DNA of 64,000 nt. Source: Microbacterium oleivorans NBRC 103075 (lineage in GTDB: Bacteria; Actinomycetota; Actinomycetes; Actinomycetales; Microbacteriaceae). Each line of letters begins with the position of its first letter. The first letter of the stretch is position 1. The position numbers and the translations under genes were made by a program. The notes beneath the pieces were generated by a model. It was given only the letters and a program-made list of their open reading frames with translations. It was not told where the DNA came from and searched no databases. The DNA is taken from the NCBI RefSeq assembly GCF_001552475.1, contig NZ_BCRG01000004.1, positions 1 through 64,000 of the forward strand, given 5' to 3'. Below are positions 24,628-51,428 of the stretch, piece after piece.

Positions 24628-24720
24628 CCGAAAACGATCGTTGCGGCCCGCTACGCGCGGAGGGGAAGGATGGGCTCCCAGAAAGGTTGGCCGGAACTGA
24701 GTTCTGGCGGACGTTTCCGG
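24628..24720 (+). repeat. cassette spacer S1
   Basis: This 93-bp copy starts CCGAAAACGATCGTT and ends GCGGACGTTTCCGG. Internal similarity to the other copies includes the CCGGAACTGAG segment (compare CCGAAACTCAG in S5). It lies between the 3' ends of two convergent genes, so it is not a promoter for either. Confidence 0.75.
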
Positions 24721-24764
24721 TGCGCCATGGACGAGGGAAGAGCCCCAACCCGGAAGCTATCTGG

Positions 24765-25271
24765 TTAGCGGCGCCGATGGAGCGGTGTCGCCCTCAGCTG
24801 TCGTCGGTGACTGCGCAATCGTGGTCGCTGACCAGAGTCGGGACGGGTCTCGACGGGAGTCGCGACCGCCCGGATACGGCGCCAGACATCGTCGCTGGTG
24901 ACCGTCCAGACACCTCCGAGAACATCAGCGAAATCCCGACGTGCGTGAGCGATCGCCTCGATCCGTTCGATCACAAGTTCTCCATGGCAGCGGATGATGT
25001 CCTCGGTCAGTCCCGCAGCGAGGATGCCGGTGTGCTGGCCAAGACCTCCACTCAGGTCGTCGCGAATCAGGTCGAGGATTCGAATCACGACGTCGAGCGC
25101 GCGATGCGGATCGGAGTTCGCCAACCCGCCGTCAATGACCGCGTCCAGCGGCTCGTCCATCTCGTCATCGAAGTCGACTGAGCCGGACTGGAAGGCGACC
25201 CAGTGGCGTGCATAGGCGTCAACCGACTCAGGTAGCAGTGAGAACCACAACGTCTCTGACACGTCCCCCAT
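24765..25271 (-). CDS. single-gene cassette, DUF6869-like protein
   Basis: The 168-residue acidic helical protein contains ARHWVAFQSGSVDFDDEMDE, then HRALDVVIRILDLIRDD, GELVIERIEAIAHARRDFADVLGGVW. This resembles DUF6869, a small family of unknown role, and the assignment is from memory of the pattern. The ATG at MGDVSETLWF is preferred. It is the only gene between spacers S1 and S2, so it forms a cassette of about 0.7 kb. Confidence 0.55.
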   Translation of the reverse strand: MGDVSETLWFSLLPESVDAYARHWVAFQSGSVDFDDEMDEPLDAVIDGGLANSDPHRALDVVIRILDLIRDDLSGGLGQHTGILAAGLTEDIIRCHGELVIERIEAIAHARRDFADVLGGVWTVTSDDVWRRIRAVATPVETRPDSGQRPRLRSHRRQLRATPLHRRR

Positions 25272-25611
25272 TCTGTGCCAGACGTTGCCCCCGCGGCTCC
25301 TCAAGTCTCTTCAGTGGGATTGATCGCAACGGCTACTGGCCCCGCCGAAAACGATCATTTTCGGCTGCGTCTCGTGGAGGCTGCTGGGGTGCTTGCTGTG
25401 GGCAGCTTCGCTCCGTGTCGTCGGAATCGCTTCCTTCGGTGTCGGGACGTCGCGGGTGCGCGAGACGGCCCGCGTGACTTGGGGTTCGGGTGCATAATGG
25501 TGGTGTCTTCGGACCCGGTAGTGGGGCTTGCCGGACCCAACCTCGACAGTTGTCGACAACAGTCCCTATCTCAGCTGGTCGCGCTTCTGCGCGCCTGAGG
25601 TAGGGAGTGTC
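25272..25611. other. 340-bp gene-free stretch holding spacer S2
   Basis: The left third contains spacer S2. The remainder up to the universal stress gene has a possible -10 element (CATAAT near 25493) and the symmetric CGACAGTTGTCG just downstream. No coding sequence is convincing. The conserved fluoride-riboswitch elements were looked for and not found. Confidence 0.5.
25344..25448 (+). repeat. cassette spacer S2
   Basis: It begins with a 22-bp near-palindrome whose arms are GCCGAAAACGA and TCATTTTCGGC. The right part (CGTGTCGTCGGAATC then CTTCGG and CGGGACG) aligns with S3 (CGTAGTCCGAATC then TTTCGG and CGGGCG). The right boundary is approximate. It marks the change from the single-gene cassette to the fluoride module. 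Confidence 0.65.
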
Positions 25612-26118
25612 ATGACAGCACCAATCGGTTCCGGACCGGTCGTCGTCGGCGTCCTGCCCGGCCTCGCTCCGGGGGTCATCGAGGTTGCGTCGTCTATCGC
25701 GCGGCGCTTCGGTACGACGCTGGTGTGCGTCAGCGTGGATGCATCGCTCTTCGATGCCGGTACGCGCTCGGACGGGTCGGTGATGGTGGAACCGATCGAC
25801 CCTGACACCGCTGACACGACACCGCAGGGCTTGTCGGACAGTGACAAGGCGGCAGTACGTGCTGCCGCAACGACCTACGGCGTCGACGTCACGTTCGTCC
25901 CGGGTGTCGGGGATCCGAGCCGGGCACTGTCGCAGGTGGCCGAAGACCGCGACGCGGCGATGCTGGTCGTCGGGGCCAGGACGGGAGCGGGTCGAATCGC
26001 GGAGTTCTTCACGGGGTCGGTCGCGGTACGGCTGACCCATCAGCAGCACCGTTCAGTGCTCGTAGTGCCCGTTGATCCGGTCGGGTTCGATGCCCCACTG
26101 CCGTGGGACACCCCGTGA
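25612..26118 (+). CDS. universal stress protein (UspA family)
   Basis: The 168-residue protein has one Usp domain. VVVGVLPGLAPGVIEVASSIARRFG opens it, and the C-terminal part has AAMLVVGARTGAGRIAEFFTGSVAVRLTHQQHRSVLVV, close to the ATP-binding G-x2-G-x9-G pattern. Usp proteins bind ATP and help cells survive stress. It is the first gene of the fluoride module and overlaps the start of the phosphoglycerate mutase remnant (GTGA). Confidence 0.85.
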   Translation: MTAPIGSGPVVVGVLPGLAPGVIEVASSIARRFGTTLVCVSVDASLFDAGTRSDGSVMVEPIDPDTADTTPQGLSDSDKAAVRAAATTYGVDVTFVPGVGDPSRALSQVAEDRDAAMLVVGARTGAGRIAEFFTGSVAVRLTHQQHRSVLVVPVDPVGFDAPLPWDTP

Positions 26119-26857
26119 CCGGCCAGCTTGTTCTGCTCCGCCACGGACAGAGCACTGCGAACGCTGCCGGTACCTTCACCGGCTTGCGAGACGTCGCGCT
26201 GACCGAACAGGGCAGCGCCGAAGCGAATCGGGCTGGGTTGCTACTTCTGCATGCCGGCATCCGACCGGACCTCGTGCTCACGTCGACGCTCGAGCGGGCG
26301 CTCCACACGGCGGAGCTCGTCACCGACGTCCTCGGACGTGATGCGCCGATCGAGTCGACGTGGCGGTTGAACGAGCGGAACTACGGCGCCCTCACCGGCA
26401 TGTCCAAGCAGAATGCGCAAGCGGCGTTGGGGGCGGAGCAGTTCTTCGCTGTTCGTCGGACCCGCACGGGACGCCACCACGCATGTCGATCCGCGCGTGG
26501 CTGGCGCTCCGGCGGACGCCGGCGCTTCGTGGACTGCCGTGGGCGGCACTTCGTCGAACCGAAACACTCTCCGACGTCATCCGCCGGGTCCAACCCGTCC
26601 TGTCGCACAGCATCACCCCGGCACTCCGCGACGGGCAGACAGTGCTCGTCGTCGCGCACGGCAACTCACTGCGGGCACTGTGTGCCTGCATGGACGGCCT
26701 AACTGACGGTGAGCTCGCGGACCTGAACCTCCCCACGGGCGAACCCCTGATCTACCGGTTCGACGGCGACGGTGGGTTCTGTCCGCGGGGTGGGGAGTAC
26801 CTGCATCCGGCAGCACGAGCAGCAGCGGCAGCGGTCGCTGCGGAAGGTGGAACATGA
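26115..26857 (+). pseudogene. phosphoglycerate mutase gene with two frameshifts
   Basis: The N-terminal part is a clear histidine-phosphatase-type mutase: QLVLLRHGQSTANAAGTFTG, LTSTLERALHTAEL, NERNYGALTGMSKQ. The frame then breaks at about 26455 and again at about 26525, with the missing middle (THVDPRVAGAPADA) in a second frame and the C-terminus (ETLSDVIRRVQPVL, VVAHGNSLRALC, LPTGEPLIYRFD) in a third. An intact version would be a 2,3-bisphosphoglycerate-dependent mutase, the step before enolase. Either the spare glycolytic copy is decaying or the assembly has two indels here. GTG overlaps the universal stress gene stop. Confidence 0.78.
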
Positions 26858-27357
26858 CCTCCCGAACGGACACGCACCTGCCCGATGGGCAGCTCCCGCC
26901 CGACCCAGACATCGACGCCAACGACCCGGAACGTATCGACCGGCCAGTGCATCTGCGGTGGCGGTACCTCGGTGTCGTCGCACTCGGCGGCGCCATCGGT
27001 ACCGCCGCACGCGACGGACTCAGCACCGCGTTCCCCGCTCAGCAGGAGGTGTCCTGGGCGATCTTCTGGATCAACATCGCCGGCGCGCTCCTACTGGGTG
27101 TGCTGCTGGAACACCTCGCGCATCGCGGACCTGACGAGGGTCGCCGCCGGACACTGCGCCTGCTTCTGGGAACCGGTGTCCTCGGCGGGTTCACCACCTA
27201 CAGCACCCTCGCGACCAGCACCGCGGTGTTGTTCCTCGCTGGCCGCGGGTTGGCCGGCACCGGGTACGCGCTCCTGACGGTCCTCGCCGGCGCGATCGCC
27301 ACCGGTAGCGGCCTCGCGATCGCGGGTTTGGTCCGACCGAACGGGGCCACATCATGA
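26854..27357 (+). CDS. crcB: CrcB/Fluc fluoride channel, first subunit
   Basis: The 167-residue protein has four membrane helices after a hydrophilic N-terminus of about 40 residues. The family motif is [20 protein letters not shown], preceded by [13 protein letters not shown]. Fluc proteins are dual-topology dimers that let fluoride leave the cell. Two adjacent different copies, as here, usually form a heterodimer. It overlaps the mutase remnant and the next crcB gene by 4 bp each. Confidence 0.9.
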
Positions 27358-27725
27358 GCGCCCTGGCCTTCCTCAGCGTCGCGGTCGCTGGCGGTGTCGG
27401 CGCGGCCGCACGGTTCTTCGTGGATGGTGCGATCAACCGGGGTCGGCAGTTCCGGCTCCCGGTCGGGACGCTGACGATCAACATCACCGGCTCGTTCCTG
27501 CTGGGCTTGATCACCGGCGCCGCCGGTCACCTCGGCGCCACCCCCGTCGCGGTGCTCGGAACAGGGCTCATGGGTGGCTACACCACGTTCAGCACCGCCA
27601 GCTTCGAGACCGTCCGCCTCGCACGCACTGGCCGCACCACCGCGGCTGCCGTGAACGGGCTCGGAATGCTCGTCGTCTCCGTCGCCGCAGCCGCCGGGGG
27701 CGTCACCCTCGGCACCCTCACTTGA
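27354..27725 (+). CDS. crcB: CrcB/Fluc fluoride channel, second subunit
   Basis: The 123-residue protein is the compact four-helix Fluc subunit, with [15 protein letters not shown] for the pore Asn region and [18 protein letters not shown] for the conserved Phe/Thr track. It begins at an ATG overlapping the stop of the first crcB. The two probably insert in opposite orientations and assemble as one channel. Confidence 0.9.
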
Positions 27726-27751
27726 CCATCCGACTGGGAGACGAACAGCTC

Positions 27752-28237
27752 ATGCACTTCGACATCACGATCGAGATCCCCCGCGGCAGCGGCAACAAGT
27801 ACGAGGTCGACCACGCCACCGGACGGATCCGCCTGGACCGGGCGGTGTTCACCAGCATGGTGTTCCCGCAGGACTACGGCTCGATCGACGACACTCTCGG
27901 CGATGACGGCGACCCCCTCGACGCGCTCGTGCTGCTGCCCCGGCCCACGTTCCCCGGCGTCGTCATCGACGTCCGCCCGGTCGGGATGCTCCGCATGGTC
28001 GACGAGAACGGCGGCGATGACAAGATCCTCACCGTCCCCGCCGGAGACGTCCGCTTCGACCACGTCCAGGACATCTCCGACGTCGCCGAGCCGGTCCTGG
28101 CGGAGATCGAGCACTTCTTCGCCCACTACAAGGAGATCGAGCACGGCAAGCACGTCACCACCAACGGGTGGGCGAACCGTGTCGACGCCGAAGCCATCAT
28201 CCGCGCCGCACAGGAACGGTTCACCCCGCACCCCTGA
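27752..28237 (+). CDS. ppa: family I inorganic pyrophosphatase
   Basis: The 161-residue enzyme starts [21 protein letters not shown], the canonical family N-terminus. Metal-site motifs follow: [24 protein letters not shown] and [13 protein letters not shown]. It hydrolyses pyrophosphate. Fluoride is a classical inhibitor of this enzyme, so an extra copy beside two fluoride channels makes sense as a target backup. The ATG is chosen over a TTG ten codons upstream because it follows GGGAG and fits the family start. Confidence 0.92.
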
Positions 28238-28382
28238 CCGGCACCCGCGCACCCGACACCATCCAGTGCGCGCCCTGAACCGCCGTGGGGAGGCAACTGG
28301 CGCCCAGTGATCGCCAGGAGGTCGTCCCTCCGCCTCCCCGCGGCCCACACCCGCACGACCAACCCGAAAGGCGACAACCGCC

Positions 28383-29717
28383 GTGAACGACTACATCAGC
28401 AACGTCCACCACACCACCCACCATCAGGGCGAGTACGTGACCCACACCAGCCGCCCCGTCACCATCAGCAGCCTGCACGGCTCCCGGATCCTCGACTCCC
28501 GCGGCTACCCGACGATCCAGGTGCGTCTCGAGCTCGAGGACGGCACCGTCGTCACCGGTGACGCCCCCGCAGGCGCATCCACTGGCGCGCATGAGGCTGT
28601 CGAGCTTCGCGACGGCGGCAGCAGCTACGGCGGCCGCGACGTGAGCCAGGCACTGCACCTCATCACGACGGACGTCGCACCGATGATCACCGGCCAGTCG
28701 TGGACCTCGATCGGGCAGGCCGACGCCGCCCTCGCTGCCCTCGACGGCACCCCGAACCACCGCCGGCTCGGCGCGAACAGTGTCGTCGCGACCTCGATCG
28801 CGATGGCACGCGCTCTCGCCGCCGCAGCGGAGCTGCCGCTCTGGCGTTGGATCGCAGACGTCACCGGCAGCACGCCCCGCCTGCCCGTCCCGCACTTCAA
28901 CGTGCTCAACGGCGGAGCGCACGCAGCGAACGCGCTCGACTTCCAGGAGTTCATGATCGCCCCGGTGAACGCCGAGACCATGACCGACGCGGTTCGGATC
29001 GGATCGGACGTCTACCACGCGCTGGCGGCACTGGTCCGGGAACGGTTCGGCAGTCTCGGTCTCGGGGACGAAGGCGGCTTCGCCCCGTCGATCGCCGCGC
29101 CCGAGGAGGCCCTCGACCTCCTCGTCGCCGCGATCAGTGCCGCCGGTTACGAGCCCGGCGTGGACACCGTCGCGATCGCACTCGACCCGGCGGCGAACGA
29201 GTTCGCGCTCGGTGACGGTAGATACCGGGTCGTGGACCGCCGGCTCGACCGCGCAGGCATGGTCGACTACTACCGCGACCTCATCAGCCGGTATCCGATC
29301 CGGAGCATCGAAGACGGCTTCTCCGAAGATGACCACGGCGGCTGGAAGGCGATGTCGTTCGCGCTCGGCGACATGCTCCAGATCGTCGGCGATGATCTCT
29401 ACGTCACCGATCCGCAGCGCATCCGCGACGGTGGGAAGGACGGGCTCTCGAACGCGGCGCTCATCAAGCCGAACCAGATCGGCACCGTCTCCCAGACCCT
29501 CGACGCGATCGGCGTCGCACGCTCGCTCGGGATGCGGAGCATGGTGTCGCACCGGTCCGGCGAGACCACCGACACGTTCATCGCGGACCTCGTCGTCGGC
29601 ACCGGAACCGGACAGATCAAGTCCGGCGCACCCGCCCGCGGAGAACGCGTCGCCAAGTACAACCGGCTCACCGAGATCGCGGAGAACAATCCGGAGCTGC
29701 CCTACGGGCTGCGCTGA
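28383..29717 (+). CDS. eno: enolase
   Basis: The 444-residue protein shows the enolase active site: SRGYPTIQVRLEL, GASTGAHEAVELRD, HFNVLNGGAHAANALDFQEFM, GLGDEGGFAP, ALIKPNQIGT with the catalytic Lys, and SHRSGETTDTFIADL. It converts 2-phosphoglycerate to phosphoenolpyruvate. Fluoride with phosphate blocks enolase, so this is probably a spare or tolerant copy. An extended N-terminus of about 25 residues precedes the usual start, and GTG is the apparent start after AAAGG. It converges on the LysR gene with a short overlap. Confidence 0.9.
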   Translation: MNDYISNVHHTTHHQGEYVTHTSRPVTISSLHGSRILDSRGYPTIQVRLELEDGTVVTGDAPAGASTGAHEAVELRDGGSSYGGRDVSQALHLITTDVAPMITGQSWTSIGQADAALAALDGTPNHRRLGANSVVATSIAMARALAAAAELPLWRWIADVTGSTPRLPVPHFNVLNGGAHAANALDFQEFMIAPVNAETMTDAVRIGSDVYHALAALVRERFGSLGLGDEGGFAPSIAAPEEALDLLVAAISAAGYEPGVDTVAIALDPAANEFALGDGRYRVVDRRLDRAGMVDYYRDLISRYPIRSIEDGFSEDDHGGWKAMSFALGDMLQIVGDDLYVTDPQRIRDGGKDGLSNAALIKPNQIGTVSQTLDAIGVARSLGMRSMVSHRSGETTDTFIADLVVGTGTGQIKSGAPARGERVAKYNRLTEIAENNPELPYGLR

Positions 29718-30634
29718 CCCCGACCGGTCACCTCGTGGGCGACGCGCAGGAAAGCAGAACCAGCTGGCTGAGGCTCTCCCGACCAGATCGCCCGCAACGG
29801 CCGGGCAAGTGGCGGCCCAGCGAGCGGGACCCGCACCAGCGACCCGTCGTTGATGTCGGCGGCGACCGTGCGAAGGCTCATCACCGCCGGTGCAATTCCA
29901 GCCTGCGCGTTCGCCCGGATGATGCTCGTGGTCTCCAGCACCGCGGCCGGAACCGACATGCTCAAACCGGCCTCCCTGAGCCATGCGGCGAGGGTCGCGC
30001 GAGTTCCGGAACCTTCTTCCCGCAGGAGCAGAGCCGTCGCCGCCAGGACCTCCGCAGTGATCCCGGTCGACCGAGCCCAGGGATGTTCCGGCGCAACGAC
30101 GACCGCGAGCTCATCGTCCGCGATCACCTGCGCGGACACACCTGCCGCCGTCACCGGGGTCTCCGTGAACCCGAGGTTCGCGCCACCCGACTGCACGAGG
30201 TCCGTCACCGCGGCGGAGTTGCCCGCGATCAGGCGCACCCGCACGTCGGGTTCGCGGCGGCGGAATTCGAGCAGCCAGCCCGGCAGCAGCAGCTCCGCGA
30301 TCGTCTGTGACGCTGCGACGACGAGCGAACCCGTGGGAGTCCGCAGCGCAGCCACTCCTGCTTCGAGGTGGCGAGACGCGTCGAGGACCGGTCCGGCCAG
30401 CCCGACGACGAGCCTGCCGGTCTCGGTCAGCACCGACCCCGTGGTCGAGCGGTGCACCAACAAGTGACCGACCATGCGCTCGGCGACCCGGATCCGAGCA
30501 GACACTGCCTGTTGCGTGACGTCGAGCGCTCCAGCGGCAGCGGAGAGGGAGCCGGTCTCGGCGACGCGTGCGAGCACGTCGAGTGTGTCGAGGTCGAGGG
30601 TTCGGTCCGTGAGTCGCCGTAGTGCCACAATCAT
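29702..30634 (-). CDS. LysR-family transcriptional regulator
   Basis: The 310-residue protein has the LysR helix-turn-helix (LDTLDVLARVAETGSLSAAAGALDVTQQAVSARI) and a periplasmic-binding-like effector domain (ASQTIAELLLPGWLLEFRRREPDV). It is divergent from the TDT carrier, so it likely controls that gene and itself. A palindromic ACAATCATTGATTGT covers its start codon. The ATG at MIVALRRL is preferred over a longer frame that crosses the promoter gap. The co-inducer is unknown. Confidence 0.87.
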   Translation of the reverse strand: MIVALRRLTDRTLDLDTLDVLARVAETGSLSAAAGALDVTQQAVSARIRVAERMVGHLLVHRSTTGSVLTETGRLVVGLAGPVLDASRHLEAGVAALRTPTGSLVVAASQTIAELLLPGWLLEFRRREPDVRVRLIAGNSAAVTDLVQSGGANLGFTETPVTAAGVSAQVIADDELAVVVAPEHPWARSTGITAEVLAATALLLREEGSGTRATLAAWLREAGLSMSVPAAVLETTSIIRANAQAGIAPAVMSLRTVAADINDGSLVRVPLAGPPLARPLRAIWSGEPQPAGSAFLRVAHEVTGRGQRSP

Positions 30635-30697
30635 TGATTGTGCCCTGCCAAGAGGTTCCGGGTACCGCCAGAGGCAGGATTCGCGCAGGCTTGGCCC

Positions 30698-31864
30698 ATG
30701 ACAACGCTCCGCACGGACCCTGCACCCGCGAACGGTAGCCAGCTGCCCCAACGGCCGCAGACGGCGTTGTTCCGTGACCTGGAGCGGCCAGGCCTGATCG
30801 TGTCGAATCTCACACCGAACTGGTTCGCGTCGATCATGGGCACGGGGATCGTCGCTGTCGCAGCTGCGTCACTGCCGCTGCAGTTCCCCGGGCTGCGCCT
30901 CGCGGCGACGGTCGTGTGGGCGATCGCCGCGGTGCTCCTCGTCGCCCTCACGACCGCGACGGTGCTGCACTGGATCCGCTACCGGAGCACTGCAGCCGGG
31001 CACCAGCTCAACCCGGTGATCTCGCACTTCTACGGCGCACCACCGATGGCGTTCCTCACCGTCGGCGCCGGGACACTCCTGCTCGGCAAGGACTGGGTCG
31101 GCCTGCCCGCCGCCGTCACCATCGACTGGGTCCTGTGGACCATCGGCACCATCGGAGGACTGCTCACGGCAGTGCTCGTGCCGTACCTGGCGTTCACCCG
31201 CCACGAGAACAAGCCCGACTCCGCGTTCGGCGGCTGGCTGATGCCGATCGTCCCGCCGATGGTGTCCGCCTCCACCGGTGCGCTCCTGCTGCCGTACGCC
31301 CCCGCCGGGCAGGCGCGGGAGACGCTGCTGTGGTCCTGCTACGGCTTCTTCGGCCTCAGCCTCATCACGTCGCTGGTCGTGATCACGCTGATCTGGAACC
31401 GTCTCGCGCAGCACAAGGTCGGGGCCGCCGGCATGGTCCCGACTCTGTGGATCGTCCTCGGGCCGGTCGGACAGTCGATCACCGCGGTGAACCTCCTCGC
31501 ATCGAACGCCCCCACCGTTGTCGATGCGAGTACCGCGCATGCCCTGCTGGTCGTGGCGCTGGTGTACGGGTTCGCGATGCTCGGCTTCGCGCTGCTGTGG
31601 ACCGTCATCGCCCTCGCGATCACCATCCGCACTGCCCGCGAACACTTGCCGTTCAGCCTGACTTGGTGGTCCTTCACGTTCCCCGTCGGGACCTGCGTCA
31701 CCGGCCTGAACGGGCTCGCCCTGCACTCAGGCCTGACCGTCGTTGCCGTCCTCGCCGTCATCTACTACGCCGGCCTCGTCGCCGCATGGATCACCGTTGC
31801 CCTTCGCACCTTTCACGGATCCGTCATCCGTGGCACCCTGCTGGCACCGCCACAGCCGGCATGA
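30698..31864 (+). CDS. TDT-family (TehA/SLAC1-like) membrane carrier
   Basis: The 388-residue protein has about ten membrane helices and starts the family region with LTPNWFASIMGTGIVAVAAASL, as in tellurite/C4-dicarboxylate (TDT) carriers and SLAC1 anion channels. NPVISHFYGAPPMAFL and a C-terminal WWSFTFPVGTCVTGLNGLAL are also typical. It may move an organic or inorganic anion. In this module a link to fluoride or acid stress is inference. It is followed by a glycosylase-like gene with an ATGA overlap. Confidence 0.85.
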   Translation: MTTLRTDPAPANGSQLPQRPQTALFRDLERPGLIVSNLTPNWFASIMGTGIVAVAAASLPLQFPGLRLAATVVWAIAAVLLVALTTATVLHWIRYRSTAAGHQLNPVISHFYGAPPMAFLTVGAGTLLLGKDWVGLPAAVTIDWVLWTIGTIGGLLTAVLVPYLAFTRHENKPDSAFGGWLMPIVPPMVSASTGALLLPYAPAGQARETLLWSCYGFFGLSLITSLVVITLIWNRLAQHKVGAAGMVPTLWIVLGPVGQSITAVNLLASNAPTVVDASTAHALLVVALVYGFAMLGFALLWTVIALAITIRTAREHLPFSLTWWSFTFPVGTCVTGLNGLALHSGLTVVAVLAVIYYAGLVAAWITVALRTFHGSVIRGTLLAPPQPA

Positions 31865-32433
31865 GTACCCCCGAGGAACTCGCTGACGTTCGATCGCTGA
31901 ACGGTCTCGCGGAGACGTGGCGGACCGCGCCCGACGGCAGCCGACGGTTCGTCCCGAGCTTCGACCCACGATCCGGCGGCAGATTCAGCCGTGTCCTGGT
32001 CCTGATGCAGTCGCCTGGCCCCCAGACCATCGCCGCAGCGCACGCAGCGATCTGCAGCGAGGACAACCCGGGCCCGACCGCGGCCGCGTTCCGAGCAGCC
32101 CGTATCGAGTCCGGACTCGCACGCGGCGAGTACGTCCGCTGGAACCTTGTCCCATGGGAACTGCCCGACCGCGTGCGACTCGAGGACATCGACGAGGGGC
32201 GGCATGCCCTCGCCACACTGCTCGCGGCCCTCCCCGCTCTCACTGCGATCGTCACGTACGGGGCCGTTGCCCTCGACGGCGTCATGCGACACTTCACCCT
32301 GGACGAGCACCCCCGACTCCTTCCGGTCATCGCAGCACCACATCCGTCTCCCGCCAACGGCCGCCACCGATCGGAACAACACCTCCGTTCCGTGCAAGCA
32401 CTCCGGCTCGCCGCGCGAGCGCGGCAGACGTAA
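31861..32433 (+). CDS. uracil-DNA glycosylase-superfamily protein
   Basis: The 190-residue protein has the layout of the uracil-DNA-glycosylase superfamily: VLVLMQSPGPQT near residue 43, VRWNLVPWELPD in the middle, AIVTYGAVALDG, and a late PHPSPANGRHRS where the family has its HPSP-type motif. Substrate specificity cannot be read. It is co-translated with the TDT carrier. Its stop codon touches spacer S3, so it is the last gene of the fluoride module. Confidence 0.75.
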   Translation: MSTPEELADVRSLNGLAETWRTAPDGSRRFVPSFDPRSGGRFSRVLVLMQSPGPQTIAAAHAAICSEDNPGPTAAAFRAARIESGLARGEYVRWNLVPWELPDRVRLEDIDEGRHALATLLAALPALTAIVTYGAVALDGVMRHFTLDEHPRLLPVIAAPHPSPANGRHRSEQHLRSVQALRLAARARQT

Positions 32434-32526: not shown

Positions 32527-32560
32527 TTGGCTCCGCGGAAGCATGTTGGAGCCTGGACGA

Positions 32561-43354: not shown

Positions 43355-43402
43355 GACTCAATCATCCTCGACTTCGCTGTTGATGTCGTGCCCGGGCTAC
43401 CA

Positions 43403-43514: not shown

Positions 43515-43521
43515 ACGTGCC

Positions 43522-44025
43522 TCAGGGGCGGCGGCGCTCGATGAGTATCGTGTCGCGCCAGTTGCCAGCCCAGGGGCCGTAGGTCATGTACGCGATGCGT
43601 TCGCGGTGGCCGATGCGGCGGAAGCCGGCACGCTCGTGAAGGGCCAGGCTGGCGGTGTTCTCGGGGAAGATGCTTGCTTGCACCGTCCAGATGTCAGCGG
43701 CGTCAGCTGCGCGCAGGAAGGAGGTGAGAAGTGCCGTGCCGACGCCGCGCCCGTGGGCTCGATCGGCAACATAGACGGAGTGTTCTACGACTCCGCGGTA
43801 GACCTCGCGTGCAGAGACGCGGGATGCGGCAACCCAGCCGAGGACTGAGCCGGCGGGATCGGTGGCGACGAGTCGGCCAACCTGGAGCTTTCCTTGGTCG
43901 AAGCCGGCCCAGGATGGGGGCTCGCTTTCGAACGTCGCGTTTCCGGCGGCGATGCCTTCGCGGTAGATCGTTTCCACCTCGAGCCAGTCCCTCTCGGTCA
44001 GGGCCCGTACCGCGATGTCGCTCAT
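43522..44025 (-). CDS. arsN1: ArsN1-like GNAT N-acetyltransferase
   Basis: The 167-residue protein is close to phosphinothricin acetyltransferases: AVRALTERDWLEVETIYREGIAAGNATFE, HSVYVADRAHGRGVGTALL for acetyl-CoA, and a C-terminal WRDTILIERR. In arsenic operons such enzymes (ArsN1) acetylate arsinothricin. The neighbouring arsR makes that assignment likely, though phosphinothricin or methionine sulfoximine remain possible substrates. Its start overlaps the arsR stop (ATGA). Confidence 0.78.
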   Translation of the reverse strand: MSDIAVRALTERDWLEVETIYREGIAAGNATFESEPPSWAGFDQGKLQVGRLVATDPAGSVLGWVAASRVSAREVYRGVVEHSVYVADRAHGRGVGTALLTSFLRAADAADIWTVQASIFPENTASLALHERAGFRRIGHRERIAYMTYGPWAGNWRDTILIERRRP

Positions 44026-44372
44026 GCGCGGAGGGCGCGGGATGCGGCGTCGAGAGCGTCGGTGATGACGCGGTAGTAGGCCCATCGGCCGCGCTGCTCG
44101 CGGGTAACGAGACCGGCGTCGACGAGCTGCTTCATGTGGTGTGACACGGTCGGCTGCGATAGGCCGACGGGCTCGGTGAGATCGCAGACGCACGCCTCCC
44201 CGTCAGCGGATGCGGCGATCAAGGACAGCAGGCGTACGCGGGTAGGGTCGCCGAGTGCTTTGAATGTTCGAGCGGTGCGCTCAGCGTCTTCAAGCGAGAT
44301 CACCGCCCCGGCCACCGGAGCGCAGCACGATTCGCTTCCCGCGGGGGCAAGGAGCGGGAACTGTGCAGTCAT
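44022..44372 (-). CDS. arsR: ArsR-family arsenic-responsive repressor
   Basis: The 116-residue repressor has a winged helix, CDLTEPVGLSQPTVSHHMKQLVDAG. Likely As(III) ligands are Cys in GEACVCDL and the pair SESCC near the N-terminus. It is divergent from the flavoprotein gene and upstream of the ArsN1-like gene. The gap between the divergent genes carries inverted ATTGAC/GTCAAT and several ATCGATG elements that may be its operator. Confidence 0.9.
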   Translation of the reverse strand: MTAQFPLLAPAGSESCCAPVAGAVISLEDAERTARTFKALGDPTRVRLLSLIAASADGEACVCDLTEPVGLSQPTVSHHMKQLVDAGLVTREQRGRWAYYRVITDALDAASRALRA

Positions 44373-44393
44373 ACTGCGATCCTCTCACGTCGT

Positions 44394-44445
44394 ATTGACA
44401 GTCGTCGATGTATCGATGATGCTCTACCCATCGATGTTCGTCAAT
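44394..44445. promoter_or_regulatory. arsR/flavoprotein divergent promoter and operator
   Basis: ATTGAC and GTCAAT form the outer arms, and inside lie ATCGATGATG and CCATCGATG. TTGACA within the left arm can serve as a -35 element for the rightward gene. The symmetric repeats suit ArsR dimers. Confidence 0.5.
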
Positions 44446-44447
44446 GG

Positions 44448-45776
44448 ATGAGTGAGGTTGCTGTGGAAGACGTCTTGCCGGTGGCTGTAATCGGCGCGGG
44501 TCCTCAGGGTCTTGCCGCGGCCGCGCATTTGGTCGAGCGAAGTGTGCCCGTTGTGGTGCTTGAGGCTGGCAGTTCTCCCGCGGCTGCGGTTGCGGAATGG
44601 GGGCACGTGCGGCTGTTCTCCGAGTGGCCTGAGCTGATCGACGCGGCGGGCGCTCGTCTCCTGGACGGCTTGGGGTGGCAAGCTCCGACGACGGGGTACC
44701 CCACTGGGGCGCAGTGGATCGAGAAATACCTCGCGCCCCTGGCTGCTGCCCTGGGTGATCGCGTCCGCTTCGGTGCCCGGGTGACGGGAGTTTCGCGGCT
44801 CGGCCGGGACCGCCTTGTCGATGCTGGCCGCGGGGATCAGCCGTTTACCGTTCACGTATCGCCTGCTCAAGGGGAGGAGTATCGGCTGCAAGCCCGAGCT
44901 GTGATTGACGCATCCGGCACCTGGTCGACCCCCAACCCGGCGGGAGCTGACGGGCTCCCCGCCATCGGTGAGGCGGCGTCCGCGGACCTGCTCTCGTACC
45001 GCATCCCCGACTTTCGTGACCGTGCTGGTTTCGCAGGCAAGCACACCGTTGTTATCGGTTCGGGGCACTCGGCCGTGACGGCCGTGCTGGCCCTTGCCCG
45101 CATGGCTCGCCGGGACCCGTCGACGACGGTGACTTGGGCGCTGCGCCGAGCGGCCGTCGGGAACACCTTTGGTGGGGGCGACGCTGACGAGCTGCCCGCA
45201 CGCGGCGCGCTGGGGATCAAAGCGAAAGAGCACGTCGATGCCGGCCTGGTATCCCTCGTCACCGGGTTCCGGGTCGAGCGCGTGACCCGTGACGGTGAGC
45301 GCCCCGTCCTAGTCGCGGAGGACGGTCGCACTCTCATGGCCGACCGGGTGGTGGTGCTCACTGGCTTCCGCCCCGACCTGTCGTTCCTCTCCGAGCTGCG
45401 GTTGGAGCTGGACCCGACGTTGCAGGCGCCGGTTCGGATCGCCGCGGAGGTGGATCCGAACGTCCACTCCTGCGGGTCCGTCGCCGCGACCGGCGCCGCC
45501 GACCTCGCCCAGCCCGAACCTGACTTCTACCTCGTCGGGGCGAAGTCTTACGGCCGTGCGCCGACATTCCTCGCGCTCACCGGGTACGAGCAAGTCCGCA
45601 GCGTTGCAGCTGAAATGGCGGGCGACCGCGAAGCCGCCCGCCGCGTCGAGCTCGTCCTCCCGGACACTGGTGTTTGCGGCGGCGCAGGGCTGTTTGATGC
45701 ATCCGGGGCGTCGCTAGGCGGGGCGTGCTGCGCGCCTCCGGTATTGCAGATCGGACGGGCGTCGGCGCCCGGCTAA
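44448..45776 (+). CDS. ars-operon FAD/NAD(P)-dependent oxidoreductase
   Basis: The 442-residue flavoprotein has an N-terminal FAD loop (VIGAGPQGLAAAAHLV), an ARAVIDASGTW segment and a second nucleotide loop (VVIGSGHSAVTAVLAL), as in flavin monooxygenase-like ArsO proteins. The C-terminus ends with Cys-rich segments, TGVCGGAGLF and GGACCAPP, which could bind arsenic. It is divergent from arsR. Its reaction is unknown, and oxidation of an arsenical is a guess. Confidence 0.78.
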   Translation: MSEVAVEDVLPVAVIGAGPQGLAAAAHLVERSVPVVVLEAGSSPAAAVAEWGHVRLFSEWPELIDAAGARLLDGLGWQAPTTGYPTGAQWIEKYLAPLAAALGDRVRFGARVTGVSRLGRDRLVDAGRGDQPFTVHVSPAQGEEYRLQARAVIDASGTWSTPNPAGADGLPAIGEAASADLLSYRIPDFRDRAGFAGKHTVVIGSGHSAVTAVLALARMARRDPSTTVTWALRRAAVGNTFGGGDADELPARGALGIKAKEHVDAGLVSLVTGFRVERVTRDGERPVLVAEDGRTLMADRVVVLTGFRPDLSFLSELRLELDPTLQAPVRIAAEVDPNVHSCGSVAATGAADLAQPEPDFYLVGAKSYGRAPTFLALTGYEQVRSVAAEMAGDREAARRVELVLPDTGVCGGAGLFDASGASLGGACCAPPVLQIGRASAPG

Positions 45777-45780
45777 AAAC

Positions 45781-45815
45781 GATGAGGGGCCAGGCCGGCG
45801 GCCTGTCCCCTCATC
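45781..45815. terminator. bidirectional hairpin between flavoprotein and arsC
   Basis: GATGAGGGG and CCCCTCATC pair, with a second inner stem CAGGCC/GGCCTG. It lies between two convergent genes and follows an A-run (CTAAAAAC), so it can serve both directions. Confidence 0.75.
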
Positions 45816-45821
45816 ACCAGA

Positions 45822-46211
45822 TCAACGGGTGAGAAGAGTCGCCTGGATCTTGTTGGACACTGCTTCGCGCAGCGGGCGGACAGCGTCGGCATCCCAGGAC
45901 TCAGGGTTGGGGAAGGACCATTCCAGAACCTCCCCGCGCGGAGCGCTGGGCAGCGCCAACCCGGGCTTCATGAGAACCACGACATCGGCAGCCTCCAAGT
46001 CAGCAGGCGTCACCGCGCGGGGCACGCGCCCCGTGATGTCCATTCCCAGCTCGGCAACGGTCGCGGCGATGGCAGGGTTCACCGTCTCGGCCGGGGCGAG
46101 ACCGGCGGACGCTGCGGTGAAGCGCTCCCCTGCGAAGTGCTCGAGGAGAGCGGCGCCGAGCTGAGAGCGGCCGGCGTTGTGCTGACAGATGAACAGGACG
46201 GTCGGTTTCAT
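45822..46211 (-). CDS. arsC: LMW-phosphatase-type arsenate reductase
   Basis: The 129-residue protein has the P-loop [11 protein letters not shown] with catalytic Cys9 and Arg, and the typical early layout of LMW-PTP ArsC. Later Cys residues used by thioredoxin-coupled enzymes are absent, so it may use mycothiol and mycoredoxin. It reduces arsenate to arsenite. It is divergent from trxB, and the gap should contain their shared promoter. Confidence 0.85.
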
Positions 46212-46285
46212 GCGGCTCTCCTCGGTACGTTGCGGTGTCGATGATCAGGATTGCGTCCTGCATAGGCACCTGTCAATATAGATAC

Positions 46286-47248
46286 ATGTCGATTCAAGAG
46301 GTTGAGCTGGTCATCGTCGGGTCGGGCCCCTCGGGCTACACGGCGGCGGTGTACGCGGCGCGGGCCGGGCTCGCCCCCGTCGTCATCGCGGGTTCTGTCA
46401 CCGCGGGCGGTGCGCTTATGACGACTACGGAGGTGGAGAACTTCCCCGGGTTCGTCGATGGCATCCAGGGCCCAGAGCTGATGGACACGATGCGCCGGCA
46501 GGCCGAACGCTTCGGCGCCCGCATCCTCCTCGACGACGCGATCCGCGTCGATCTCGAATCCGACACGAAAGTCATCGAGACGGGCGCCGGGGAGACGTTC
46601 CACGCCCGCGCGGTGATCCTCACCATGGGGTCGGCGTACCGGAAGCTCGGGCTTCCCGACGAGGAGCGCCTGTCGGGTCATGGCGTGTCGTGGTGTGCGA
46701 CGTGCGATGGGTTTTTCTTCCGGGGCCAGGACATCGTCGTGGTCGGTGGCGGTGATTCGGCCATGGAGGAGGCACTGTTCTTGACCCGGTTCGCTCGGAA
46801 TGTGACCGTTGTTCACCGCCGCAGCTCGTTCCGGGCGTCGAAGATCATGGCGCAGCGGGTGCTGGAGCACCCGAAGATCGACGTCGCGTGGAACAGCGAG
46901 ATCGCGGCGTTGCAGGGGGAAGAGAAGGTGCACGGAGTTCGCCTGCGGGACACCGTCTCCGGTGCTGAGCGTGACCTCCCCGTGTCGGGCGTGTTCGTTG
47001 CTATCGGTCACGACCCTCGCTCCGAACTCGTCACCGGCCAGGTCGCCACCGATGCCGATGGTTACGTGCTGGTGGAGCACCCGTCCACGCGCACCTCGCT
47101 CACCGGGGTGTTCGCCGCCGGCGACCTCGTCGACCACACCTACCGGCAGGCGATCACCGCTGCCGGGACCGGATGCGCGGCAGCACAGGACGCGCAGCAC
47201 TACCTCGCCGCGCTCGATGTTCCCGCCCTGGCGGAGGCTTTCGCGTGA
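46286..47248 (+). CDS. trxB: thioredoxin reductase of the ars operon
   Basis: The 320-residue flavoprotein has [17 protein letters not shown] for FAD, the redox-active pair CATC in [23 protein letters not shown] for NADPH, and a C-terminal [15 protein letters not shown]. It reduces thioredoxin, which supports arsenate reduction and repair. Extra trxB copies are common in actinobacterial ars operons. The ATG at MSIQEVELV is preferred to a longer frame through the promoter. It overlaps acr3 (GTGA). Confidence 0.92.
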
Positions 47249-48339
47249 GCAACGCAGCACCCGCTACTCGCCGCCTCTCGACCCTCGACCGGTGGCTACC
47301 GCTGTGGATCGGCTTGGCGATGGGCAGCGGCATCCTCCTGGGCCGGTTCATCCCGGGGCTGTCCGAACTGCTGTCACACCTTGAGGTCGGTGGGATCTCG
47401 ATTCCGATCGCGCTCGGGTTGCTGGTCATGATGTACCCGGTGCTCGCGAAGGTCCGATACGACAAGGTCGCCGCCGTGACCGGCGACAAGAAGCTCCTCG
47501 TTTCGTCGCTGGCGCTGAACTGGATCGCGGGCCCTGCATTGATGTTCGCCCTGGCGTGGGTGTTCCTGCCGGACCTGCCCGAGTACCGGACGGGACTGAT
47601 CATCGTCGGCCTCGCACGCTGCATCGCCATGGTCGTGATCTGGAACGACCTCGCTTGCGGTGACCGGGAAGCTGCGGCCGTGCTTGTTGCGATCAACTCG
47701 GTGTTCCAGGTCATCGCGTTCTCGATCCTCGGCTGGTTCTACCTCACCGTCCTCCCCGGCTGGCTCGGCCTCGACAGCCAAGGCCTGGACGTGTCCGTGT
47801 GGCAGATCGCGCTCAACGTGCTCATCTTCCTCGGCGTGCCACTGGTCGCCGGGTTCGCGTCCCGTCTCATCGGGGAACGTCGCAAGGGCCGCGCCTGGTA
47901 CGAGGGCTCATTCCTGCCCAAGATCGGACCGTGGGCGCTGTACGGGCTGCTGTTCACGATCGTGCTGCTGTTCGCCCTCCAGGGGGAACAGGTCACCTCG
48001 CGGCCGCTCGACGTCGTGCGGATCGCGGTCCCGCTGCTGGTGTACTTTGCCGTCATGTGGTTCGCCGGCCTCATCACCGGTAAGACTCTCGGCCTGGGCT
48101 ACGCCCGCTCATCGACGCTCGCGTTCACCGCGGCGGGCAACAACTTCGAACTCGCCATCGCCGTCGCGATCGGCACGTTCGGCGCCACGTCCGGGCAAGC
48201 CCTCGCAGGTGTTGTCGGGCCACTGATCGAGGTCCCCGTGCTCGTCGGCCTGGTCTACGTCTCACTGTGGGCCGCGCGGGCATGGTTCCACACCGACCCC
48301 TACGCGATTCCCGAACCTGCCCTGGAAAGGACTCGATGA
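47245..48339 (+). CDS. acr3: Acr3-family arsenite efflux permease
   Basis: The 364-residue protein has ten membrane helices. [18 protein letters not shown] contains the essential Cys of Acr3 in helix 4, and [21 protein letters not shown] carries the conserved Glu region of helix 9. It exports arsenite using the proton gradient. GTG overlaps the trxB stop, and the next gene overlaps its own stop. Confidence 0.94.
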
Positions 48340-49328
48340 TGAGCGCCACGATCACCACCGCAGAAGATACTTGCGCCCCGTCCCCAACGCACGCGATCGG
48401 GGACGACGCGGCCGCCGCGATCGCCACCACGCTGAAGGCGCTATCCGATCCGCTGCGGCTGCGGATGCTTTCCGCGATCGCCACCGACGCGCGCGGTGAA
48501 TCGTGCGTGTGCGACCTCGCGGAACTGGCCGAGGTGTCCCAGCCCACCGTGTCGCACCACCTGAAGGTGCTCCGCGACACCGGCGTGCTTACCTCCGAGC
48601 GGCGTGGCACGTGGGTCTGGTACCGGATCGCCCCGGCCCTTCGCCCGGCCGTGACGACGCTGCTGGACTCGTTCGCGCCCGCGGCCGTCGCCCCCGTCCG
48701 CGCTGAGCATGCGGGGCTCGAGAACGTCGACGACGCTCTCACCCACCTCGCAGAAGCGCTCAGTCAGGACTACCCGCAGCTCGACGGCAGCCTGGTGGCG
48801 ACGATCGTCCGCGAGTCGTACACGGCCTTGGCCAAAAGCGCTCGGGTGAAGAACCACCTGCTGTCGCTCACCGAACGTTTCGCGCGCCAACGACTCACCG
48901 ACATCACCCGTGACCGCACGCAGGGACAGCCGCAGGTGCTGTTTGTCTGTGTCGCGAACGCAGGTAGATCGCAGCTCGCCGCGGCGCTGGTGAATCAGCG
49001 CTCGGGCGGCGCCGTTGTGGCGCGCTCTGCTGGATCGACCCCGGCCGCTGAGATCCACCCCCATGTGCAGCCCCTCATCGACGAGCTGACCCCCGGCGAC
49101 GACGAACCGCGGTTCCCGAAACCGCTGACCGATGACGCAGTCCGCGCAGCTGACGTCGTCATCACCATGGGTTGCGGTGATGTCTGCCCGATCATCCCCG
49201 GCGTCCGCTACGAGGACTGGACCGTCGGTGACCCCGCCCTCGCCTCCGCAGAAGGCGTCGCAGCGATCCGCGACGACATCGCCCGCCGCGTCGACGATCT
49301 TCTTGCCACACTCACTACCACCCGCTGA
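48336..49328 (+). CDS. ArsR-ArsC fusion protein
   Basis: The 330-residue protein joins three parts. Residues 1 to about 110 form an ArsR winged helix (LKALSDPLRLRMLSAIA, ESCVCDLAELAEVSQPTVSHHL), then comes a helical linker domain (ALTHLAEALSQDYPQLDGSLV, as found before ArsC in actinobacterial fusions), and from about 190 an arsenate reductase with LFVCVANAGRSQ and TMGCGDVCPIIPG. It may sense arsenite while reducing arsenate. Translation is coupled to acr3. Confidence 0.9.
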   Translation: MMSATITTAEDTCAPSPTHAIGDDAAAAIATTLKALSDPLRLRMLSAIATDARGESCVCDLAELAEVSQPTVSHHLKVLRDTGVLTSERRGTWVWYRIAPALRPAVTTLLDSFAPAAVAPVRAEHAGLENVDDALTHLAEALSQDYPQLDGSLVATIVRESYTALAKSARVKNHLLSLTERFARQRLTDITRDRTQGQPQVLFVCVANAGRSQLAAALVNQRSGGAVVARSAGSTPAAEIHPHVQPLIDELTPGDDEPRFPKPLTDDAVRAADVVITMGCGDVCPIIPGVRYEDWTVGDPALASAEGVAAIRDDIARRVDDLLATLTTTR

Positions 49329-49339
49329 CCGGAGCCACC

Positions 49340-49741
49340 ATGACTGACACCAAGCCCTCCGTCCTGTTCGTCTGCGTCCACAACGCCGGCCGCTCCCAGA
49401 TGGCCGCGGGATTCCTTCGCGACATCGCCGGCGACCGCATCGAGGTCCGCTCCGCGGGGTCGATGCCCGCCGACCAGATCAACCCCACCGCTGTTCAGGC
49501 GATGGCCGAGCTGGGCATCGACATCACCGCCGAGCAGCCAAAGGTCCTCACTACCGAAGCCGTGCAGGCCTCGGACGTCGTCATCACGATGGGATGCGGC
49601 GACGCGTGCCCCTTCTTCCCTGGCAAGCGTTACGAGGACTGGAAGCTCGATGACCCGGCCGGGCAGGGCATCGACGCCGTGCGTCCGATCCGTGACGACA
49701 TCCGCACGCGTATCGAGCAGCTCGTGAGCGAGCTCGTCTGA
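49340..49741 (+). CDS. arsC: arsenate reductase (ArsC, actinobacterial type)
   Basis: The 133-residue enzyme has the P-loop LFVCVHNAGRSQ with Cys12 and the downstream TMGCGDACPFFPGKRYEDWKL seen in mycothiol-linked ArsC1/2 enzymes. It follows the ArsR-ArsC fusion by 11 bp and ends the acr3 operon. It is the third arsenate-reductase domain in this module. Confidence 0.92.
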   Translation: MTDTKPSVLFVCVHNAGRSQMAAGFLRDIAGDRIEVRSAGSMPADQINPTAVQAMAELGIDITAEQPKVLTTEAVQASDVVITMGCGDACPFFPGKRYEDWKLDDPAGQGIDAVRPIRDDIRTRIEQLVSELV

Positions 49742-49805
49742 GGTGGCGGCACCCCACGCATGTCGGAGGCCCGCACGCCTGAGCGTGCGGGCCTCCGAGC
49801 GGGGA

Positions 49806-50012
49806 TCAGACGCGCTGGCTGATCGTTCCATCCGGGTTGCGCTTGGCGGTCGACTCGGTCACGAACCGGCCGGACGAGGCCGAACGGTGCACCGTGGTCG
49901 AGTTGCTGGTGCCGGAGCCCACACGCTCGGTGGTGGTCTTACCGGGCCAGCGGGCGGTGGTTGCCTTCGACACGAAACGGCCGGTCTTGGCGGAGCGGTG
50001 AACGGTTCCCAT
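49806..50012 (-). CDS. 68-residue repeat protein
   Basis: The product is almost entirely two repeats: TVHRSAKTGRFVSKATTAR and TVHRSASSGRFVTESTAKR. Small basic proteins with HRS..GRFV repeats are frequent in actinobacteria, and their function is unknown. AAGGAG precedes the ATG. It lies just after the arsenic operon on the opposite strand. Confidence 0.65.
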   Translation of the reverse strand: MGTVHRSAKTGRFVSKATTARWPGKTTTERVGSGTSNSTTVHRSASSGRFVTESTAKRNPDGTISQRV

Positions 50013-50196
50013 GAGAACTCCTTCTTTCGGTGTCAGGTGCCGTGAGGAGGAGTGCCGCTGGTTCGCGGCTGCTGACTCCGGTACAGTCAGTGCTCTGGAT
50101 GAGACCTGACTTCTCAGGGCTTGTGAGCCGTCCTGTTGCAGCGGGGCGGCTCTTTTCAGTTGTGGTCCCGACATCTCGGTATATATCCGTCGGAGC

Positions 50197-50358
50197 TCAC
50201 TTCCCCCCGCCGGATTCGAACTTTCCTGCGGTTGATCCCTTCATGGACCGGGAGACCAGCGACTGAGCCTTGGTTGATGGCACCGATCGCCGGGCGGCTT
50301 TGGCGCTCTGCGTCCCAAACGAGGAACGTTCGATCTTGCCTCTGAACTGATCGCTCAT
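50197..50358 (-). CDS. 53-residue basic protein coupled to a sigma-like gene
   Basis: The product starts MSDQFRGKIERSSFGTQSA and ends FESGGGK. It is rich in Ser, Lys and Arg and has no known family. Its ATG overlaps the stop of the sigma-like gene (ATGA), so it is co-translated and could be a partner or regulator of that factor. Confidence 0.55.
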   Translation of the reverse strand: MSDQFRGKIERSSFGTQSAKAARRSVPSTKAQSLVSRSMKGSTAGKFESGGGK

Positions 50359-51164
50359 GCTGACTCCTTGCTCTCTCGTAGTTGCTGACGAGCCCGCGCC
50401 ATCGCAGACTCCACCGCCTTCGCGGTCATGCTCAACTTCTCACCGATCTCAGCGTGGGTGTACCCATGCACAGCGTGAAGGTAGAACGCCGATCGAACGC
50501 GGCCGTCGGTGATCTTCCCGAAAGCTCTCCGCAGCTCATCCTTGACCTGTGCTGCTTCCCCCGCATCCGGCATCGTTGGTGTCGAGGGGCCGTCTTCGAA
50601 ATCGTCTACCCAGTCCAACGTGGCGGGTGGTGCTTCGGGCTCAACGTAGGACCGGATCTCTTCGCGCAGCCACCGCTTGTAGACGTTGCTGAACTGGAAC
50701 AGGCACTGCCCCACGAAAAACGTTCGCAGGGAGGCCCCCTTAGCTGGATCCCATCTGCCGGGGATGAGTACCTTGTCGCGGAACGCGATGAGCGCTCGTA
50801 CGACTGTCTCGTCCGCGAGGCTTTCGGCGTCCTCGATCATCGCGCCCGGGCGAGGCTCCGGGTCGAGGGCGCCGAATCCCTTTCGCTCTACCTCGCCGCG
50901 GATCTGACCCTTGTAGATCCAGCCGCGGATGACCGCCCACCCGTACTTTGCGATCTCGTTCGCGAACAGGTCGTAGTTGCGGCCGCGGAACCCGCTGGAT
51001 CGAAGGGCAGCCGCCAACTCGCGGTCACCAGCGAGTCGATCGAACTTCTCCTCCGCTCGCCCGCGCTCTTCATCGGCGGAAGAGGCTAGGTTGGTCGCCC
51101 ACTCGCTGAGAGTGGGAACGCCATCGGGAGACGAATGCTCATCGGGCTCGTCGTTACCGGTCAT
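50355..51164 (-). CDS. sigma-70-family (ECF-like) factor
   Basis: The 269-residue protein has a region-4 helix-turn-helix at the end (VRSAFYLHAVHGYTHAEIGEKLSMTAKAVESAMARARQQL), typical of ECF sigma factors. The centre (NEIAKYGWAVIRGWI and SLRTFFVGQCLFQFSNVYKRWL) fits a divergent region 2. An acidic N-terminal extension of about 55 residues is unusual. It is followed by the 53-residue gene and is the last gene before spacer S6. Target promoters are unknown. Confidence 0.75.
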   Translation of the reverse strand: MTGNDEPDEHSSPDGVPTLSEWATNLASSADEERGRAEEKFDRLAGDRELAAALRSSGFRGRNYDLFANEIAKYGWAVIRGWIYKGQIRGEVERKGFGALDPEPRPGAMIEDAESLADETVVRALIAFRDKVLIPGRWDPAKGASLRTFFVGQCLFQFSNVYKRWLREEIRSYVEPEAPPATLDWVDDFEDGPSTPTMPDAGEAAQVKDELRRAFGKITDGRVRSAFYLHAVHGYTHAEIGEKLSMTAKAVESAMARARQQLRESKESA

Positions 51165-51311
51165 GGCGTCCTCGCGATCCTGGTCAGTTCATAGTCACCA
51201 CGATCCCTCATATGTCCGACATCGGCGGCTTCCCCTCGCGGTCGGCGGAGAAGTCCGGGCGACTTCGGAGCTTCACGATCGCGTTTCGTTTTTGGAGGTT
51301 TCCTCAACCGA

Positions 51312-51428
51312 CCGAAACTGATCGATTCCGGGACGGCCGTCGCCGGCACGGAGTCGACATCGACACGCCGTGCCGAAACTGTGTGCCGAAACCCATCTAT
51401 GCCGAAATATCCTGTGGACCGTTTTCGG
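51312..51428 (+). repeat. cassette spacer S6
   Basis: This 117-bp copy starts CCGAAACTGATCGATTCCGG and contains three further CCGAAA segments before ending GGACCGTTTTCGG. It shares the GGGACGG block with S5. It closes the arsenic module. Confidence 0.72.

Follow-up and report, generated by a model that had tools for sequence, protein, structure and literature searches.

The first 64,000 nucleotides of contig NZ_BCRG01000004.1 of Microbacterium oleivorans NBRC 103075 (assembly GCF_001552475.1; this whole stretch is referred to as the window) carry a run of metal, fluoride and other cargo genes punctuated by six related spacers, S1 to S6, which are the subject of this work (Table 1). A preliminary description, made from the letters alone, had read them as six homologous blocks pointing the same way, each placed where one function stops and another starts. 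S1, S3, S4, S5 and S6 indeed lie at the places described and share one direction; S2 retains little of its accessory part, S5 is atypical and S6 belongs to a second class of site. The partition by function also stands, with family matches giving DUF6869, fluoride, copper, cadmium/lead-type and arsenic cassettes. What the spacers have in common is a 20-bp palindrome, CCGAAAACGATCGTTTTCGG, with AT at its centre. With up to three mismatches allowed, CCGAAAACGATCGTT has 13 matches in the window where 1.91 would be expected, a number reached in none of 100 shuffles, part of the 13 being both strands of one palindrome.

Table 1. Spacer sites and the cassettes between them, in window coordinates (R1 and R2, profiles of type A and type B sites)
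Feature	Position	Strand	Description
S1	24628..24720	+	type A, core one base short; R1 47.3 bits
S2	25345..25396	+	core palindrome with 1 mismatch, accessory part eroded; R1 22.1 bits over model positions 1-52
S3	32433..32526	+	type A; R1 63.1 bits
S4	39204..39297	+	type A; R1 61.7 bits
S5	43403..43502	+	100 bp, atypical type A-like; R1 32.9 bits, R2 21.6 bits
S6	51312..51428	+	type B (res-like), last site of the array; R2 46.1 bits, E 3.5e-13
Cassette 1 (S1-S2)	24765..25304	-	DUF6869 protein gene, PF21746
Cassette 2 (S2-S3)	25355..32442	.	universal stress protein, CrcB fluoride channel, enolase, TDT transporter (family matches)
Cassette 3 (S3-S4)	32443..39213	.	copper-type P-type ATPase 32996-35134, M23 peptidase 37302-38717
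Cassette 4 (S4-S5), cluster K1	39214..43412	.	ArsR 39395-39754, cadmium-family P-type ATPase 39697-41676, signal-peptidase-II-like 41996-42814
Cassette 5 (S5-S6)	43413..51321	.	GNAT 43522-44193, flavin monooxygenase-like 44448-45776, ACR3 47173-48339, ArsR-ArsC-type 48267-49328, sigma-70 region 4 protein 50355-51164

Alignment of the actinobacterial sites separates two classes that share the core. Type A, nearly fixed at 94 bp and nearly gapless, consists of the core, about 30 variable bases and an inverted accessory block, GCCGNAAACG...CCGNAAC...TTTCGGCAGNCGTTTTCGG. Type B runs to about 117-130 bp: after the core and about 30 variable bases come GCGACACGCCG, three direct repeats of CCGAAACC and a final CGTTTTCGG. 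AT occupies core positions 10-11 in at least 99% of 97 distinct A sites and in 100% (rounded) of 47 distinct B sites. A narrow half-site motif occurs 0.58 times per type A site against 0.05 in shuffled sequence and, counted position by position in full-length type A sites, the outer half-site CCGNNAACG stands near positions 51-53 in 65 of 77 and the end half-site in 60 of 77. The type A profile, R1, was trained on 22 sequences including S3 and S4, with S1 and S5 outside the training set; S6 was likewise outside that of the type B profile, R2. The left half-core of S3 deviates from the consensus (ACAAATACGAACGTTTTCGG). S5 has an additional insertion within its accessory part, scores weakly under both profiles and may be an A/B hybrid.

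The point at which neighbouring sequence changes was mapped by comparing 178 sites pairwise, a flank counting as shared when its 150 bp were at least 90% identical; sites were left out if they had under 150 bp of flank or if the match began beyond position 12. Both flanks were alike in 25 pairs, only the left in 51 and only the right in 61, the one-sided pairs being non-independent: they form 11 groups with a common left flank and 15 with a common right flank, drawn from 21 and 26 genomes or loci. Left-sharing pairs have no core differences at positions 1-11 and 62 at positions 12-20; among the 63 differences of the right-sharing pairs, 60 fall at positions 1-8, and the other three are single ones at 11, 12 and 17, which leaves 9-10 unchanged. 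Since core differences are split in this way by the shared flank, exchange is placed within G9-A10-T11, the central GAT. When the other flank was required to be less than 50% identical, 47 left and 60 right pairs remained and the pattern was unchanged. An A site in one genome stands opposite a B site in another at a common left flank in 16 of the left-sharing pairs.

Longer alignments between different genomes (at least 400 bp, at least 95% identity) gave 119 unique internal ends, 46 of them within 25 nt of a core centre, against 0.99 expected by chance and at most 4 in 200 randomisations. For another 69 of the 119, the nearest core is over 25 nt away in both partners, many of those listed being in plasmid stretches or just past an accessory block. 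Cassette junctions thus do fall in the spacers, as the preliminary description had proposed, and do so at the core centre. The window sites behave alike: the 150 bp right of the S3 core are 99% identical to a site in M. oleivorans P10 (L045:5065) beside an unrelated left flank (29%), the same stretch of S4 recurs at 99% identity or more at sites of six other genomes, again with unrelated left flanks, and the left flank of S5 leads into type B sites in five other genomes (L068, L070, L074, L076, L094). Such comparisons show that the A accessory block travels with the cassette to its right, the right end of a cassette being a bare half-core. Elsewhere, sites in G415 (L057:4647) and M. oleivorans CD11_3 (L044:5221) have the cassette's first 150 bp in common and unrelated left flanks.

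The loci compared were fetched around listed R1 or resolvase matches and are not a random sample; sites below 24 bits or with fewer than 60 model positions matched were dropped, as were L001-L004, which are duplicates. Sites more than 12 kb apart were not joined into a row, and cassettes were clustered at 85% identity or more over at least 70% of the longer one. Neighbouring sites no more than 12 kb apart share orientation in 93 of 98 pairs (two-sided binomial p 4.5e-22 under the assumption of free and independent orientation), in rows of up to six same-direction sites. Type B is the last site in 36 of the 37 same-strand rows that contain it, the exception being L068 (B-A-A-B); this count leaves out L040, a repeat of L073, and the L028 row A-69 bp-B, an overlapping double call, with both of which it becomes 38 of 39. 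A second array lies on contig C5 of the window's genome (50645-54728, or L005 10646-14730), with two A sites, a core alone and a B. Core-to-core cassettes (n=103) have a median of 2.4 kb and range from 69 bp, the double call, to 11,819 bp.

Twelve cassette clusters occur in more than one source, two of which (K7 and K8) are shared only between 11MF and its own duplicate, leaving ten real shares. K0 is found in seven genomes and K1, the S4-S5 cassette of the window, in six including the window's, with different neighbours, so that copies do flank different cargo as had been anticipated. The expectation of precise gain or loss between copies is borne out by two cassettes, 762 and 771 bp long, that stand between K3 and K4 in G266 and G327 (L060, L077) and are missing from G408 (L063). 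K0 precedes K6 in L061 and follows it in L079, an order reversal for which pure deletion from a single ancestral order is insufficient.

A candidate enzyme is found next to type B. In M. oleivorans P10 (L026) and in L014, type B extends as far as the start codon of a gene for a small serine recombinase; the protein of L026 (187 aa, 4640-4080, minus strand) matches the structures of Gin (4m6f, 1.6e-30), gamma-delta (2gm4, 1gdt), Tn3 (5cy1) and Sin (2r0q). The family falls under PF00239, is about 180-200 aa long and has the catalytic Ser, whose motif is present in 119 of 120 homologues. The resolvase loci compared, 40 in number, are most but not all of the listed matches at about 67% identity or more. 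In 15 of them type B abuts the gene, no more than 21 nt from its start codon; in 11 it is found 1.0-1.6 kb upstream on the gene's strand, and in 14 it is not seen. Type B abuts all 11 resolvases that are at least 82% identical, the core part missing in two (L100, L105). By genome, type B and a close resolvase (best E at or below 1e-50) coincide in 30 of 92 (Fisher p 1.8e-8, not corrected for relatedness), an association in which the common core blurs R1 against R2. Type B is multi-part, has a palindromic subsite I and, in these 15 loci, adjoins the resolvase gene, as a res site does, and the exchange mapped to positions 9-11 coincides with the central dinucleotide of that subsite. For serine resolvases, cleavage at the central dinucleotide with subunit rotation is established.

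Outside the genus, four acetic-acid-bacterium contigs with similar flanks (L022, L032, L041, L043) have the exact 20-mer 93 nt before a resolvase that is 28-29% identical, which ties the palindrome to resolvases there as well; this is a possible second lineage of the same site. In G410 and G517, type B is split by a TniB-TniA-TniR-like insert with a short direct repeat at its ends, probably the result of one event. The inserts (L142 1343-6607, L143 1429-6697) sit between model positions of about 64 and 70. The transposon family to which they belong, that of the Tn5053-type res-site hunters, is known to target res sites (PMC7765201). On three named plasmids (L138, L140, L141), a related resolvase is preceded by genes annotated VbhA/Fic or AbiEii. 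One of these, Cutibacterium acnes plasmid pTZC1 (L141), has a related palindrome, CAAAAACGATCGTTTTTG, at 6203-6220, where it adjoins a Tni module; upstream of the resolvase, positions 10809-10850 weakly resemble type B (14.3 bits).

Taken as comparative sequence evidence, these data make it highly probable that the spacers serve as sites of site-specific recombination and delimit swappable cassettes, with exchange at the centre of the palindrome, presumably by a small serine resolvase whose res site is type B. The identity of the enzyme is likely on the strength of the res-type layout. With less assurance, though still on the favourable side, we propose a serine-resolvase counterpart of the integron in Microbacteriaceae, with B/res as platform, A as cassette site and a dedicated resolvase, that would spread whole resistance operons between species and leave resolvase-free arrays behind. 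On the first and more probable of these readings, the palindrome is the crossover site (subsite I), with the accessory region to its right in the short cassette form A or the longer res form B. Resolvase dimers would bind core and accessory half-sites and bring two sites together, both would be cut at the central AT, and subunit rotation and rejoining would follow. Between two like-oriented sites in one molecule, the cassette would be released, and recombination of the released circle with B would set the new cassette immediately to the left of B; B would then correspond to attI and A to attC. As the window's genome has no such resolvase gene, its arrays on the window contig and on C5 would be mobile only with a resolvase supplied from outside, like the clusters of attC sites lacking integrases (CALIN) of integrons.

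Several observations weigh against the explanation just given. Known resolvases strongly favour deletion within one molecule. The resolvase family has no match in the window's genome, where PF00239 gives one weak fragment, no resolvase match lies within 4 kb to the right of S6, and a resolvase-type recombinase gene beside the window array, considered as a candidate, was rejected as none was found. Among 34 arrays ending in B, a resolvase lies within 2 kb in 12, none appears in the 800 bp or more viewed in 19, and 3 could not be judged; in about 10 kb more beyond B, covered for many of the arrays, the only matches to exceed 30% identity were fragments in L159 and L160. Type A and a close resolvase coincide only moderately, in 19 of the 79 genomes positive for R1 (Fisher p 0.008, likewise uncorrected for relatedness). 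The B-like block before the resolvases of plasmids L138, L140 and L141 has no recognisable core. The position of gamma-delta Arg71, an active-site residue, is Gly in 108, Ser in 2 and Arg in none of the 110 motif-matched homologues (of 120); as it is never kept, the catalytic competence of the family is not self-evident. Insertion of the circle at B, which the reordering and the A/B exchange suggest, is the weakest step, because Tn3-type synapses channel recombination to intramolecular resolution (PMC9943657). A restored SGI1 resolvase is, however, reported to form cointegrates in vivo (PMC12217951).

The same crossover and the same enzyme would also serve a different history, in which A and B are res sites of plasmids and transposons and the arrays record resolvase-driven fusion and deletion of larger elements, a shuffling role already known for resolvases, with no free cassettes. 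That reading differs in how cassettes arrive and is not fully exclusive of ours. Plasmids with B-type blocks and related resolvases beside toxin-antitoxin genes speak for it, as do Tn402-like modules in the same niche, but A is a distinct class of nearly fixed 94 bp whose rows comprise as many as six sites pointing one way, cassettes have been gained or lost singly, and order is reversed between two genomes; on balance we hold this rival reading to be rather improbable. Transposition as such is not needed as the mover because the borders coincide with the core centre (no search for transposon ends was made).

Action at the palindrome by a tyrosine recombinase, XerC/XerD as used by the dif modules of Acinetobacter, is very unlikely. 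In its favour, the window's genome lacks the resolvase but encodes two full-length proteins of Xer size with strong PF00589 matches, and the palindrome could be read as inverted arms around a 6-8 bp spacer at CGATCG. Against it stand the accessory blocks of 70-110 bp and the abutment of B on resolvase genes; moreover, the few core differences at position 8 (4 pairs, one underlying change) and position 12 (1 pair) that follow one flank fit a 2-bp overlap better than one of 6-8 bp. Homologous recombination between similar 94-bp repeats, which could draw on the resemblance of the sites (mean column identity 71%), should scatter its breakpoints over the whole site; they are found at the central three bases, and the A and B accessory blocks differ. 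It was rejected on the precision of the breakpoints and seems to us extremely improbable. We give practically no credence to a dispersed non-mobile repeat (of the repetitive extragenic palindromic or miniature inverted-repeat kind, REP/MITE-like) or a regulatory operator: the sites are palindromic and mostly intergenic, as such elements would be, but one-sided homology ends at the core in 112 pairs, orientation is constant and B is terminal.

Set against integrons, as defined in PMC8618304, the present system shares tandem same-way arrays, a platform-type site at one end, sites that travel with their cassettes and arrays devoid of the enzyme. It differs in that integrons rely on the tyrosine recombinase IntI, while here the likely enzyme is of the serine type, the sites are res-like and double-stranded with no consistent type A hairpin, cassettes are often whole operons of several kb in either direction, and the A block is at the cassette end away from B. 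PF00589 matches of the window's genome lie on contigs C11, C2, C7 and C3 only, with none on C4 or C5, so that no IntI gene accompanies the array; in other genomes it is a resolvase, not an integrase, that abuts the platform-type site. Folding z-scores of seven type A sites were -1.47, 0.25, -0.97, -0.57, -2.68, -1.91 and -0.08, with differing structures, and the attC-type hairpin was rejected for lack of a consistent single-strand fold among them; two type B sites gave -4.45 and -1.69, the former counting against that rejection. The likeness to attC that had been noted therefore holds for function, not for form, type A having no consistent hairpin (z from -2.68 to +0.25) and the layout being that of a serine-resolvase res rather than of a tyrosine-recombinase attC. 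The spacer system is functionally integron-like, yet it is no integron, given the lack of a linked integrase and of a consistent A hairpin and the different sites.

Modules bounded by sites and shuffled by site-specific recombination are also a feature of Acinetobacter pdif. The dif modules have short XerC/XerD sites in alternating orientation. Those of pdif use host recombinases, unlike the sites of 94 or 130 bp described here, which keep one orientation and have a resolvase beside one of their classes. By this layout (94/130 bp, by inspection, no search with a Microbacterium dif having been made), the spacers do not resemble dif modules. Resistance and toxin-antitoxin modules are shuffled between plasmids in pdif systems (PMC13141974). 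The res sites of Tn3, gamma-delta and Sin (subsites I-III) resemble type B in the crossover palindrome with central AT, the accessory half-sites and the resolvase start codon at the end; canonical res, however, resolves cointegrates or multimers, whereas here a second class, A, stands in arrays between unrelated cargo, and Arg71 of the gamma-delta resolvase is not kept in the family. Res-site hunters of the Tn5053/Tn402 kind do occur inside type B, but they transpose into res and leave a crossover at the core centre unexplained.

To our knowledge, the cassette systems described so far, integrons and dif modules, use tyrosine recombinases. Searches of the literature, judged by titles and abstract openings and extending to neither preprints nor most subscription journals, brought up no small serine resolvase in charge of a cassette system. 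A 2001 work by Kholodii, 'The shuffling function of resolvases', reportedly concerns, going by its title, module exchange by resolvases. What would be new here is a cassette system on a small serine resolvase, the enzyme family, the res layout and the idea of resolvases shuffling modules being already known. The suggestion of a new cassette-capture system is supported, and those checks that could be run did not contradict it. If true, this would be an independent invention of the cassette solution built on a small serine resolvase, and it would explain the mixing of metal, fluoride and other operons in environmental actinobacteria. Two site models would let annotators find cassettes where plain islands are now read. 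It also raises the question of how a resolvase, normally a strict deletion machine, adds cassettes.

In the genus of the window, R1 (E at or below 1e-3) matched 97 of 295 genomes and R2 (E at or below 1e-5) 92 of 295. At E of 1e-5 or less, R1 matched 9 of 249 genomes across the family and 4 of 246 across the class, all four of the window's genus and the window's genome among them. Stricter filters in these genus, family and class profile searches lost weak matches. The exact palindrome occurs in 36 stretches of public genomes, many of them Microbacterium; in Clostridia, Selenomonadaceae, Pectobacterium, Saprospiraceae and a small number of other groups, its matches come without any A/B site scoring at least 28 bits, so that finding the palindrome is not diagnostic by itself.

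As for cargo, positions 25397-32411 of cassette 2 recur with 93.7% identity, between different flanks, on Clavibacter phaseoli plasmid pCP. On pCP (L137 3212-11019), this fluoride cassette adjoins a different recombinase gene as well as a long palindrome, GCGAGACGTCTCGC..., which may be the site of a different resolvase. Cargo of the C5 array is of a non-metal kind, with HIT-type, aldo/keto-reductase-type and other single-gene cassettes, named from their translations and not by family search.

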